Positions 1,684-61,479 of a stretch of DNA of 64,000 nucleotides are shown one piece after another; the stretch's first letter is position 1, and the number at the start of each line of letters is the position of its first letter. The stretch comes from Treponema socranskii subsp. paredis ATCC 35535. Its GTDB lineage: Bacteria; Spirochaetota; Spirochaetia; Treponematales; Treponemataceae. The stretch lies in the NCBI GenBank assembly GCA_000413015.1, contig KE332515.1, positions 1,632,377 to 1,696,376 of the forward strand, in the 5' to 3' direction. The notes under the pieces are model-generated. The model saw only the letters and a program-made list of their open reading frames with translations, was not told the origin of the DNA and ran no database searches. A program made the translations under genes and the position numbers.

Positions 1684-2013
1684 GGAGATACGATAAAAAG
1701 CGCCGTCTGAAATATCGCCGTCGCTGGAGTCTAAAGCCGAAAAACGCTGAAGCGTTTTTCTTTTATCGGAGACACTCGCGATTTCTGCGCATTGCTCGAA
1801 ATCGCAGCGTTCTTATCTCGAGTTTGGCGGATGTTTGCATAAGACGTGTATACGTATCGTTCCAATAAAAATCGTCTGAATACAATACACTGTATTTGCA
1901 AACTCGACTATTGAACATGTGCGCGCTCGCGTACGGCTAAAAACTTTTTCGAAAGTTGTACTTTGCTTGAAGCTTCGCTGCAAGTACCTGCAAAAGTTTT
2001 TATGGGAGTTTTT
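1684..2013 (+). repeat. Dispersed leader element, copy A (with insertion)
   Basis: First of three copies of a non-coding element (others 45246-45471 minus, 60691-60915 plus). All begin with GGAG-ATACGATAAAAA-GCGCCGTC-like sequence and end at the Shine-Dalgarno GGAG of the next gene. Copy A carries about 85 extra bases (about 1726-1812) with two hairpins: AAAAACGCT-GA-AGCGTTTTT at 1740-1759 and CGATTTC/GAAATCG at 1779-1785/1798-1804. Near the 3' end AAAAACTTTT pairs with AAAAGTTTTT, enclosing a longer inner stem than the other copies. It fills the 546-bp gap between the symporter and the RND gene. Confidence 0.8.
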
Positions 2014-43823: not shown

Positions 43824-45245
43824 TTATTTTAAGAATACGATCATGGAAAGTATAAACATAAATACGGTTCCCGCAATCATCGGAACGGAAGTCCGCTTTA
43901 CGATTTCAAACGGCGTTTTCTTTACGCTTCCGGCAACGATGATAACGACCGCGGACACGGGTGAAACAGCACGCAGCAAATTGCCTCCGAGTCCGAGCGG
44001 AATGCTGAGCGCCAACACGTTGATACCCGCAGCGGCGGCGAGCGGTACCATAAGCGGCACCATTGCATAAAACAAAGCCGTACCGCTTCCGCTCAGCAAA
44101 ACGATGAGCGCGGTCAGGAAAAGCAATATCAAAGGCAAAGCGAAACCCGTCCCCGAGCCTCCGATTCCCGTCATTAAATTCTGCAAATGCGTCATAATGC
44201 CGATCGATTTTAAACCGACGACGAAAACGCTTGCAGCGACAAGCAGAACGACAACGGGAATAACGCCGCCCATTCCTTTGAAAAAGTGTTCCGTACCTTC
44301 GAGCGCTTTTTTCGCGCTTTTATTTCTGATGATTTCGCATACGACGGCGATAATGAAGGAACACAAGGTCGCGATTTCAACGGTCAATTTAATTTTGATC
44401 GAAAAAGCGATATCGAGGACAAATATGACAATTAAAAAAATGATCGGCAGCAAGGGAAGCAAACCGTAGACCGCCGTAAACAAGGGACCGTGTTTTGCTT
44501 CGCTCGTTTCCTTTTGTACGATTGTTTCATCCGCAGCGATGCCGCCGGATTTTTTGTCCATAATTTTTTGCCAAAAGAAATGAACGACAGCCATTACCAA
44601 AAGCGTGGGCACCGATACGAGCGCGTGATATTTGAAAACATAATCCGACACCGTCAAACCTGCGTATTGGGCGGTATTGGCAAGCTCCGCGGCTATAGCG
44701 ACGTTATCGCCTCCAAGCGGAGTCGGCATAACCGTCGCCGTCGTTGCTATAACGGCCGCCGCCGTCAGCACGCTCATCCCCGATTCAAGCAAAACGGGCA
44801 GCAGCGTCGCCAGTAAAATAATCGCCAAATTCGATGCGCTCGGAATAACGAGCGACAAAAAATTTCCGATTAAAAAAACGAGCGGCACGAGCACATACAC
44901 CGACTTTATTTTTTTTACGGGTTTCAGCAATATCGAAACGGTTACTTTATTCGCTTCGATATGCGACATATACGCCGAATAGCCGCCCAAAATCAGAATA
45001 ATAAATCCTGCCGATGAAAGCGTCGATTTGAATTGCGCTATAATTATTTCAAGCGGATCCAAAAAAGCAAGTCCCGTGCTTGAAAAATTTTTGAACGCAA
45101 GAGGTTTGCCCATGAGCAAAGCGGCATACATCAGTATCACGCCCAATAAAAAAAGCGATATTTTAACATCCATCTTTTTTATGAGAAGATACACGAGAAG
45201 AGCAAAGGCGGCGATCGCCAAGCCGTACATTAAAAACACATCCAT
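43824..45245 (-). CDS. DcuC-family carrier
   Basis: 473 residues, about 12 helices; SLVIPSASNLAIILLATLLPVL, TPLGGDNVAIAAEL, and near the end LGGNLLRAVSPVSAVVIIVAG are typical of the DcuC/C4-dicarboxylate exchanger family. Its place between a nucleoside hydrolase and sugar kinases hints at a nucleoside or sugar substrate. The start is at the end of repeat element copy B, whose GGGAG provides the ribosome site. Substrate untested. Confidence 0.8.
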   Translation of the reverse strand: MDVFLMYGLAIAAFALLVYLLIKKMDVKISLFLLGVILMYAALLMGKPLAFKNFSSTGLAFLDPLEIIIAQFKSTLSSAGFIILILGGYSAYMSHIEANKVTVSILLKPVKKIKSVYVLVPLVFLIGNFLSLVIPSASNLAIILLATLLPVLLESGMSVLTAAAVIATTATVMPTPLGGDNVAIAAELANTAQYAGLTVSDYVFKYHALVSVPTLLVMAVVHFFWQKIMDKKSGGIAADETIVQKETSEAKHGPLFTAVYGLLPLLPIIFLIVIFVLDIAFSIKIKLTVEIATLCSFIIAVVCEIIRNKSAKKALEGTEHFFKGMGGVIPVVVLLVAASVFVVGLKSIGIMTHLQNLMTGIGGSGTGFALPLILLFLTALIVLLSGSGTALFYAMVPLMVPLAAAAGINVLALSIPLGLGGNLLRAVSPVSAVVIIVAGSVKKTPFEIVKRTSVPMIAGTVFMFILSMIVFLK

Positions 45246-45471
45246 AGTTTTCTCCCATAAAAACTTTTGCAGGAAATATCAATTTCCGAAAAAGTTTTTA
45301 GCCGTGCGCGTATGCGCACACGTTCAATAGTCGAGTTTGCAAAATAAAGCGTATCGTATTCATGCGACTTTTATCGAAACGACACATATACACGTCTTTT
45401 GCAAACATCCGTGCAAACTCGAGATAAAAAGCGTCGGCGATATTTCAGACGGCGCTTTTTATCGTATCTCC
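45246..45471 (-). repeat. Dispersed leader element, copy B
   Basis: 226 bp on the minus strand, filling exactly the gap between the TAA stop of the nucleoside hydrolase (45472) and the carrier gene; the element starts right after the stop with GGAGATACGATAAAAA. The 3' part has outer arms AAAAACTTTT (45290-45299 read on the minus strand) and AAAAGTTTTT (45259-45268), enclosing GGAAAT-TGAT-ATTTCC (45272-45287). The GTGCGC-ATAC-GCGCAC hairpin is also present. No promoter separates the two genes, so here the element is intercistronic. Confidence 0.85.
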
Positions 45472-46389
45472 TTATATACATTTCGCCAAAGAATCCGTAA
45501 ACCACGTTCGGAATGCCGCGGGATCTATATCCGTACAAACCGTCGCATTCGCATCTTTATGCAGATATCCTTTCAAGTCGACGACAGAACAACCTGAGGT
45601 CAAGCTTCCCGCCAATTCGATATCGACAAATGCCTCGGCGGTTTTGAACATATCCGGACGCAACACGTATGCGATCGCACATGCATCGTACATACGCAAA
45701 CCGGTTGCAAAAGTACCGCTCCTGTATTTTTTAAAGAGCGCATGCACCATCTCTCCCGTCTTGCCCATCGCAAGCAGCTTTTCGGTGTTCTCCGGCAAAA
45801 CCGTCGCCTGCCAGCCGATATCCAAACCGACCATAGCGATCGGAAGTCCCGCGTCAAAAACTATTTTCGCCGCATGCGGATCGGTTGCAAAATTGAATTC
45901 CGACATAACGCCTTTGTTTCCGCGCGTGAGCGAACCGCCCATAACGACCAGACGCGAAATATGCGTTTTCACTTCGGGATAGAGAGAAAATAACAGGGCG
46001 ACATTCGTCAGCGGTCCGATAGCGACGAGGGTGATTTTATCTTCCGCCATGATAACTTCGCGCATCTTTTCAACCGCATGCTTTTCGGACAACAGAGACA
46101 TATCCGGCTCCGGAAAATCGAAACCGTCCATACCGCTTTTTCCGTGAACATTCGACGCATCGGCAAACTCCGCAATGAGCGGCTTTACCGCACCCTTCGC
46201 TACCGGCGTCTTTTTGCCCCAAAACGTTACGAGCTTTAAAGCGTTTGTCGTAACTTTTTCCAGCGAAACGTTTCCTGCGACGGTCGAAATAAGTTTGACG
46301 TCGAGTGCATCGCTGAACAGCGCGATTCCCAACGCAACCGCATCGTCGATTCCGGGATCCGTATCGATAATGATTTTTTCTTTAGCCAT
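45472..46389 (-). CDS. Nucleoside hydrolase (IUNH family)
   Basis: 305 residues; DTDPGIDDAVALGIAL binds Ca2+, then VHGKSGMDGFDFPEP and a C-terminal D in ATVCTDIDPAAF. Cleaves purine or pyrimidine ribonucleosides to base plus ribose. Second ATG (46389) is preferred as start: TGA of the acetyltransferase overlaps it and GGAGG lies 4 nt upstream. It heads the catabolic run with the carrier and kinases. Confidence 0.9.
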   Translation of the reverse strand: MAKEKIIIDTDPGIDDAVALGIALFSDALDVKLISTVAGNVSLEKVTTNALKLVTFWGKKTPVAKGAVKPLIAEFADASNVHGKSGMDGFDFPEPDMSLLSEKHAVEKMREVIMAEDKITLVAIGPLTNVALLFSLYPEVKTHISRLVVMGGSLTRGNKGVMSEFNFATDPHAAKIVFDAGLPIAMVGLDIGWQATVLPENTEKLLAMGKTGEMVHALFKKYRSGTFATGLRMYDACAIAYVLRPDMFKTAEAFVDIELAGSLTSGCSVVDLKGYLHKDANATVCTDIDPAAFRTWFTDSLAKCI

Positions 46390-46823
46390 CATGCCTCCTG
46401 TGTAGATTTTCCCGTTTTAATATACTGTACCATGCCGCTTCCGAATTTTTCATTCGGGCGCACAATAAAGCCGTATTTTTCATAAAACGATTCCCGTCCG
46501 GGAGTGGACATCAGCCCGACATACGCATCGTCGGCACACACGGTTTTGATATGGCGCATGATATCTTCCATAATCAAATCGCCTATTCCTCTGCCTTGAT
46601 AGACGGGATCGACAACGACATCCTTTATAAAAAACGCAATCCTGTTATCGCCGACAACTCGCGCCATACCGACGGCATTTTCGTCATCTTTTGCAACGAC
46701 GGAATAACACGTTTTTTTCAAAGCTTCGGCAACATCTTCACTTCGATAATAAACGAAACCTGCTTTTTCGCGCAGCGATATAAAAATCGGAACCGTCAAT
46801 CCGTTTTTTTCAAGATATATCAT
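46389..46823 (-). CDS. GNAT-family acetyltransferase
   Basis: 144 residues. The VVDPVYQGRGIGDLIMEDIM acetyl-CoA loop and YEKYGFIVRPNEKFG end mark the GNAT fold; residues 30-60 are the variable acceptor side. Acceptor unknown. It overlaps the nucleoside hydrolase by 1 nt in the same operon, so may act on a related metabolite or only be co-expressed. AAGAAG is a weak ribosome site before ATG 46823. Confidence 0.82.
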   Translation of the reverse strand: MIYLEKNGLTVPIFISLREKAGFVYYRSEDVAEALKKTCYSVVAKDDENAVGMARVVGDNRIAFFIKDVVVDPVYQGRGIGDLIMEDIMRHIKTVCADDAYVGLMSTPGRESFYEKYGFIVRPNEKFGSGMVQYIKTGKSTQEA

Positions 46824-60690: not shown

Positions 60691-60915
60691 GGAGGTACGA
60701 TAAAAAACGCCGTCTGAAATATCGCCGTCGCTTTTTATCTCGAGTTTGCATGGATGTTTGCAGAAGACGTGTATATGTGTCGTTTCGATAAAAATCGCAT
60801 GAATACGATACGCTTTATTTTGCAAACTCGACCATTGAACGTGTGCGCATACGCGCACGGCTAAAAACTTTTTCGGAAGTTGCAACTTCCTGCAAAAGTT
60901 TTTATAGGAGTAAAT
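60691..60915 (+). repeat. Dispersed leader element, copy C
   Basis: 225 bp from GGAGGTACGATAAAAAACG to the GGAG ribosome site of the gene at 60916. A stray 3' end (TTGCAAAAGTTTTTATAGGAG, 60674-60694) lies directly before it. Stems: TCGAGTTTGCA pairs with TGCAAACTCGA further on, GTGCGC-ATAC-GCGCAC at 60843-60858, outer arms AAAAACTTTT (60863-60872)/AAAAGTTTTT (60894-60903) around the 16-bp palindrome GGAAGTTGCAACTTCC (60875-60890). Confidence 0.85.
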
Positions 60916-61479
60916 ATGAGCGACATAATCCGATTGGGTATTACCGGTATTCTAATATCGTTTATTTTCTTTTTGATGAAGCGGAGCAAGAAAAAAGACT
61001 TGGACACAAACACCGACAGGAGATTAAAATTGCCGACCTATGTTCTCTTCATCGGTCTTATAGATTTTCTGCTGTTTTTCGGATTCGCTTTATTTTCAAA
61101 CCTCTTCCCGAACGGAACGGAGTCGGCAGCTACGACTATACTGTTTTCAATTTTTGCATTGCTCGGAATCTTTCTCGTATATATGTATTTTGTCGAAAAC
61201 TATACATACGATGAAAACGTTATAATATACAGGAAAATAAATTTAAAAAAAATAACAATAGAATGGAACTCGATTGTCGATATAAAGTATTCGTCCGCGA
61301 TGCAATGGTTTATCATAAAATGCAGCGACGGTACAAAAGGATATTTTTCGGTAATGCTGAAAGGGATGAAACCTTTTGCCGAAACGATTTTACAAAAGGT
61401 TGCCGCGGGAAAAACGGATTCCAAAACGCGCGAAACGCTTATCTCTCTGAAAAACGGAAGCGTCGTGGGAAGCTTTTGA
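60916..61479 (+). CDS. Membrane protein of unknown function with PH-like tail
   Basis: 187 residues: three helices (about 4-21, 41-62, 72-95), then a cytosolic beta domain YTYDENVIIYRKINLKKITIEW resembling bacterial PH-like domains. ATG 60916 follows element C and its GGAG. Second gene of the window that uses this element with a promoter just upstream. Family not recognised. Confidence 0.6.
   Translation: MSDIIRLGITGILISFIFFLMKRSKKKDLDTNTDRRLKLPTYVLFIGLIDFLLFFGFALFSNLFPNGTESAATTILFSIFALLGIFLVYMYFVENYTYDENVIIYRKINLKKITIEWNSIVDIKYSSAMQWFIIKCSDGTKGYFSVMLKGMKPFAETILQKVAAGKTDSKTRETLISLKNGSVVGSF

Follow-up and report, generated by a model that had tools for sequence, protein, structure and literature searches.

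A hairpin at the 3' end of a probable TD-1-related mobile element at Shine-Dalgarno sites in Treponema

The hairpin at 45259-45299 of the window (the whole 64,000-nucleotide stretch of DNA analyzed) is very probably P3, the last hairpin at the 3' end of a MITE-like element that is mobile but non-autonomous, occurs in oral Treponema bacteria, is related to Rfam TD-1, and targets and regenerates Shine-Dalgarno sites. We place the probability of this reading at roughly 0.85. The case rests on flanking repeats, on defined boundaries, on relatives that carry a single target word at the uninterrupted site, on a fixed orientation, on a recent burst in one genome, and on covariation in the hairpins.

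Copies of the element in the window

We located the hairpin sequence AAAAACTTTTGCAGGAAATATCAATTTCCGAAAAAGTTTTT at 45259-45299, where an earlier note on this DNA had described it together with two sister copies. The sister at 60863-60903 was recovered by a pattern that gave 0 matches in shuffled sequence, with 0 expected. Read in gene sense, which is the minus strand for copy B and the plus strand for copies A and C, P3 (AAAAACTTTTTCGGAARTTG..ACTTCCTGCAAAAGTTTTT) is only the 3' end of a dispersed element of about 212-317 nt with four hairpins in the order GTAC-P0-P1-P2-P3-AT(R). The features in the window are as follows.

45256-45467, minus strand: copy B of the element, 212 nt, 5' ATAC-P0 ... 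P3-ATG 3'
45259-45299, minus strand: hairpin P3 of copy B (pattern match, covariation)
45252-45255, minus strand: GGAG, gene-side repeat of copy B, the Shine-Dalgarno 6 nt before the ATG of 43824-45245
45468-45471, minus strand: GGAG, upstream repeat of copy B, abutting the stop codon of gene 45472-46392
43824-45245, minus strand: gene downstream of copy B, a 473-aa membrane protein
60695-60906, plus strand: copy C of the element, 212 nt, GTAC-P0 ... P3-ATA
60863-60903, plus strand: hairpin P3 of copy C (pattern match, covariation)
60691-60694, plus strand: GGAG, upstream repeat of copy C
60907-60910, plus strand: GGAG, gene-side repeat of copy C, the Shine-Dalgarno of the gene starting at 60916
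60916-61479, plus strand: gene downstream of copy C, 187 aa
1688-2004, plus strand: copy A of the element, 317 nt, with an extra module in P0 and an apparently exchanged P3 apex (1939-2001)
1684-1687, plus strand: GGAG, upstream repeat of copy A; the T. socranskii orthologue (L231) has a single GGAG
2005-2008, plus strand: GGAG, gene-side repeat of copy A, the Shine-Dalgarno of the gene starting at 2014

Searching the window's genome (G000) with the element region recovered at least 30 copies with flanks. These measure 204-353 nt from P0 to P3, and nearly all end in the P3 hairpin. The boundaries of copy B were set using uninterrupted sites and 11 near-identical copies from a second genome, G042. 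The element is short, repeated and without coding sequence of its own, and its terminal inverted repeats are poor, with only about ATAAAAA common to both ends in inverted form. ARAGORN found no match in the window, and promoter and terminator scans of copies B and C gave nothing inside the element above shuffles.

Covariation and modular change in the hairpins

The earlier note had claimed a compensatory G-C to A-T swap in the inner stem, and this is a genuine double change. In gene sense, copy B reads GGAAAT/ATTTCC and copy C reads GGAAGT/ACTTCC, with 60875-60879 pairing with 60886-60890 in copy C. Copy A retains the outer arms and carries the longer GTACTT...AAGTAC apex at 1939-2001 that the note had also reported. 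The outer-arm pattern matched 20 times genome-wide, and the reversed control matched once. We aligned 27 distinct 41-nt P3 hairpins from several Treponema genomes and counted compensatory pairs, as the note had proposed. Within the inner 6-bp stem, four pairs showed double changes (26 cells), with a single one-sided change and three broken, unpaired cells; the one-sided stem breaks that would have spoken against a conserved fold were not seen in these further copies. Shuffling predicted 7.2 double-change cells, and sliding the partner strand by 1-3 columns gave 0-7. The outer arms are nearly invariant among the 27 hairpins and so carry little information on structure; four of the 27 lack pairing at C6-G36 in these arms. 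P0, like P3, shows covariation.

These counts bear on the idea that the hairpins are chance palindromes under no selection for pairing. The outer arms, which are simple A/T runs that barely vary, would suit that idea. The absence of shuffle matches and the 26 double-change cells refute it, and we give it practically no weight. The hairpins are kept paired by selection on the fold, which may act as RNA, as DNA or as both.

The note had read the pattern as a conserved RNA fold and not a conserved protein. It was right that a fold is conserved and not a protein. Length changes and modules break any common reading frame of the element. The specific appeal to RNA is only partly supported, because an RNA fold and a DNA hairpin needed for transposition cannot be told apart by covariation alone. 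Both strands of the element folded better than shuffles because the hairpins are near-palindromic. Gene-sense pairs whose commonest form is Watson-Crick contained G.T 70 times and A.C 28 times, a count in which some bias remains because the structure used as reference was derived from a single gene-sense copy. The G.T excess favours the gene-sense strand as the folded strand, and not RNA as such. The note's account was also incomplete, lacking the Shine-Dalgarno target, its duplication and the relationship to TD-1. The compensatory change is real, and in all likelihood its wider explanation lies in the mobile, TD-1-related element, which inserts at Shine-Dalgarno sites and restores them.

Filled orthologous sites carry versions of the element that differ from one another by entire hairpin modules. 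At L043, the G000 copy has a longer P2 and an additional block of about 105 nt in P0, neither of which occurs in the two relatives. The G000 copy at L034 has additional blocks in P0 and in the loop of P3, and these are missing from Treponema sp. Marseille-Q4130. The longer P3 stem of copy A looks like one such module exchange. Comparing the L034 and L043 sites of G000 with L242, L232 and L235, we also observed that elements at orthologous sites gained the same modules, in combinations that differ between copies; P0 takes up about 105 nt, the P3 loop about 60 nt and the P2 loop about 36 nt.

Insertion at Shine-Dalgarno sites

We used the joined flanks of G000 sites to find uninterrupted orthologous sites in relatives. 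DNA identity between the window's genome and either T. socranskii or Marseille-Q4130 is about 90% at shared loci. Empty alleles contain one GGAG or AGAG, filled alleles contain two, and the native sequence continues on both sides. Such pairs were found at L018 (hslU), L033 (argB), L024, L042, L023, L027 and L037, the last being copy A with the T. socranskii allele L231. At L018, the empty allele GGTAGAGGAGGCATAAACGCATG corresponds to the filled allele GGTAGAGGAG / GTACGATAAA..TTTTTATG / GGAGGCATAAACGCATG; at L033, GAAAGAGAGGAAGCTATG corresponds to GAAAGAGAG / GTACG..TTTTTATA / AGAGGAAGTTATG; and at L042, GTTAAGGAGTTGTTACG corresponds to GTTAAGGAG / TTACGATAAA..TTTTTATG / GGAGTTGTTACG. L022 and L019 agree on one side only, their flanks having diverged or mutated. 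At L019, G000 and T. socranskii have the element and Marseille-Q4130 has the empty site; at L024, G000 and Marseille-Q4130 have the element and T. socranskii has the empty site. These opposite patterns among three close species call for recombination, for loss, perhaps precise, or for more than one insertion into a given Shine-Dalgarno.

The target duplication is best read as 4 bp long, and the duplicated word is the Shine-Dalgarno itself. A fifth base also agrees at L018, L033, L024, L023, L027 and L042, and in only 3 of the 11 G042 copies. In a hand-curated table of left and right 4-mers, the right 4-mer was the same variant in 5 of the 7 sites where the left was not GGAG; right-hand variants occurred at 7 of 59 other sites (Fisher p 0.0015). 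Counting against the mobile-element reading, the two 4-mers differ at L019, L034, L039, L044, L096, L101, L108 and L126. A position-by-position permutation of left and right repeats gave weak signals only, and this test is under-powered because GGAG is near-invariant on both sides.

We examined about 90 copies. They lie sense to the gene, with the 3' end adjoining a Shine-Dalgarno GGAG 4-10 nt before a start codon. Nearly every copy ends ..GTTTTTAT-N-GGAG followed by the start codon at that distance, the exceptions being tandem copies and a few false matches. The downstream genes, named from their N-terminal sequences, number about 90, include tpiA-, hslU-, ftsY-, obg-, murD- and pyrH-like genes, and have no common function or pathway. 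Copies at L095, L101, L108, L126, L203 and L205 precede paralogous genes (MAKHNRRYKDSVFVDFF.. and ML.AEYDYDVDIAVQR..), which we take to be of the Rpn/PD-(D/E)XK type, and have a common variant 3' end, TTTTTTGAGAGG; at these loci the leader and gene may have been duplicated together. A remnant in T. putidum (L278:680-735) retains hairpin P0 only, between a GGAG and the AGGAGG before a start codon, and is perhaps a deletion derivative.

When named genomes were scanned for the exact pattern, copies turned up in T. socranskii, T. parvum, T. putidum, T. vincentii and Treponema sp. Marseille-Q4130; those few of the remaining matches that we read proved to be unrelated chance hits. Among 98 same-genus genomes, clear copies occurred only in G000, G042 and G049, with six weak partial matches besides. 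A scan of viral contigs gave four matches, all by chance. G042 contains exactly 11 detected copies that are identical at 200-205 of 205 positions (98-100%) and have unrelated flanks, which is a recent burst. All 11 are GGAG-flanked, in sense and upstream of a start codon. A crude gene call classed about 23 of the window's 90 intergenic RGAG sites as Shine-Dalgarnos, and at that rate the chance of 11 of 11 is about 4e-7. Chance placement in intergenic GGAG therefore fails for the G042 copies and for the rest. Selection could add to the Shine-Dalgarno-only pattern.

These distributions weigh on a quite different explanation, in which the repeat is a vertically inherited cis-regulatory leader RNA kept gene by gene and multiplied through gene duplication. 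The constant sense placement in 5' leaders, the conserved fold with compensatory changes, the Rfam typing of TD-1 as Cis-reg, and sites common to three species (such as L030/L127/L145) all fit such an RNA. As the sole explanation, it is refuted by clean empty sites in close relatives, and both the near-identical G042 copies with unrelated flanks and the roughly 90 genes without a common pathway speak against it. We consider it improbable as a replacement for the mobile-element reading, and mobility leaves room for regulation at some of the sites.

Under the mobile-element reading, a putative trans-acting transposase would insert the element, always the same way round, into the 4-nt core of the Shine-Dalgarno just ahead of a start codon. 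The core is mostly GGAG, more rarely AGAG or GAAG, and the insertion would leave one copy of it on either side. Such a 4-bp duplication, at a target that is asymmetric, suggests a transposase that makes staggered cuts and tells the two element ends apart. Since it is the Shine-Dalgarno core that is duplicated, the gene retains one at its normal distance from the start, as can be read directly from filled sites, and would gain a structured 5' leader of about 212 nt if the copy is transcribed with it. This would explain why insertions upstream of essential genes are tolerated, and the leader may affect expression; copies before essential-looking genes point to continued translation. The hairpins most likely serve as ends recognized by the transposase, as a leader that does not bury the regenerated Shine-Dalgarno, or as both. 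We think it probable, with somewhat less confidence than in the mobile element itself, that this is a mobile family targeting the ribosome-binding site, in which the core is duplicated, the gene stays translatable and every insertion becomes a structured mRNA leader; recognition may extend beyond the DNA word GGAG, for example to an mRNA or ribosome context.

We considered two other routes of movement. One is a single-stranded DNA element of the IS200/IS605 or REP/RAYT type, in which an HUH (Y1) transposase recognizes subterminal hairpins, the left GGAG is the target or cleavage tetranucleotide, and the right GGAG is part of the element. Hairpins near both ends, an asymmetric tetranucleotide target, fixed orientation and weak inverted repeats agree with this route, and left and right cleavage sites are identical in some elements of these kinds. 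It is an unlikely route: Y1_Tnp is absent from G000, G042 (despite its burst), G049, G099, G100, G101 and G102, with one partial match in G098, and the right 4-mer follows the native variant (AGAG, GAAG) in the 5 of 7 variant sites above, as target duplication predicts. The other route is an RNA-mediated element integrating at the Shine-Dalgarno in sense through a reverse transcriptase. This would accommodate the strict sense orientation in mRNA leaders and the surplus of G.T relative to A.C among gene-sense pairs; RVT_1 genes are absent from G000, G042, G098, G099, G100 and G102, however, and a GGAG target alone already fixes orientation, making this route very unlikely.

A non-exhaustive search for an autonomous partner of the mobile element, covering unpaired ends and two IS loci, found none with the same ends, which counts against that reading. 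We fetched four unpaired 3' ends in G000 and found no transposase-carrying element between these ends (reading frames were listed for L197 only). An IS with a DDE_Tnp_1 gene (L278/L280) was rejected as the partner, having unrelated ends (CACGGAAATCAA). DDE_Tnp_1 also matched at G000:C1:1476858-1480704, where one of two reading frames holds a stop codon. The rve domain is absent from G000 and present in G042.

Comparison with TD-1 and other interspersed repeats

We compared the element to the Rfam family TD-1 (RF03155, clan CL00124). Both have the order P1-P2-P3, a P3 core TTCGGAAATTGATATTTCCTGCAAAA, a 3' end ..UUUUUAUaGGA and a position in 5' leaders. Alignments from cmscan span the whole TD-1 model (1-120), with P1, P2 and P3 in order, the conserved P3 and the 3' GGA. 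Window-type copies score 32.9-60 bits, below the gathering score of 64.5, and Rfam at gathering level gave no match in the window. T. putidum copies score 105.8-134.1 bits and one T. vincentii copy scores 66.1, all passing 64.5, and the T. putidum TD-1 copies are GGAG-flanked in the same way. Relative to the 120-nt TD-1 model, the element adds the 5' terminal hairpin P0 and GTAC, and the window's species group adds about 70 nt inside P1 and optional apical modules. TD-2 (RF03162, same clan) matches the opposite strand of T. putidum TD-1 P2-P1-P0 above gathering and ends in P0-GUAC. Having read the alignments, we dropped the proposal that TD-2 is nothing more than TD-1 in antisense. Stand-alone TD-2 copies (L152:6115-6211, L089:4802-4900 and L100:6288-6392) have a similar hairpin order with other hairpin sequences, and the two inspected, at L152 and L089, lie outside any Shine-Dalgarno.

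The Rfam output for TD-1 gives neither mobility nor a target. The TD motifs were reportedly described in a 2010 paper, whose main text names neither TD-1 nor Treponema, and the literature we searched contained nothing joining Treponema TD-1 to transposition. The structured RNA is already known from Rfam; within that literature, its mobility and its target appear to be new. If so, a catalogued "cis-regulatory RNA" becomes a jumping element, which would explain its copies before unrelated genes and serve as a warning that a 5' leader position and covariation are no proof of regulation. Targeting and regenerating the Shine-Dalgarno would be a neat strategy for a parasite of a gene-dense genome. 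Filled and empty alleles of one gene offer natural experiments on structured leaders and translation.

Other bacteria carry repeats with related properties. The pneumococcal BOX, RUP and SPRITE repeats are short, structured, non-coding and modular; BOX and RUP were reported with inverted repeats and target duplications, and all three are over-represented between convergent genes (PMC3049150). The Treponema element differs in being confined to Shine-Dalgarno sites in one orientation. REP/RAYT and IS200/IS605-derived elements resemble it in having terminal hairpins beside a conserved tetranucleotide. Unlike them, the Treponema element has direct 4-bp target repeats and occurs in carriers without a Y1 transposase.
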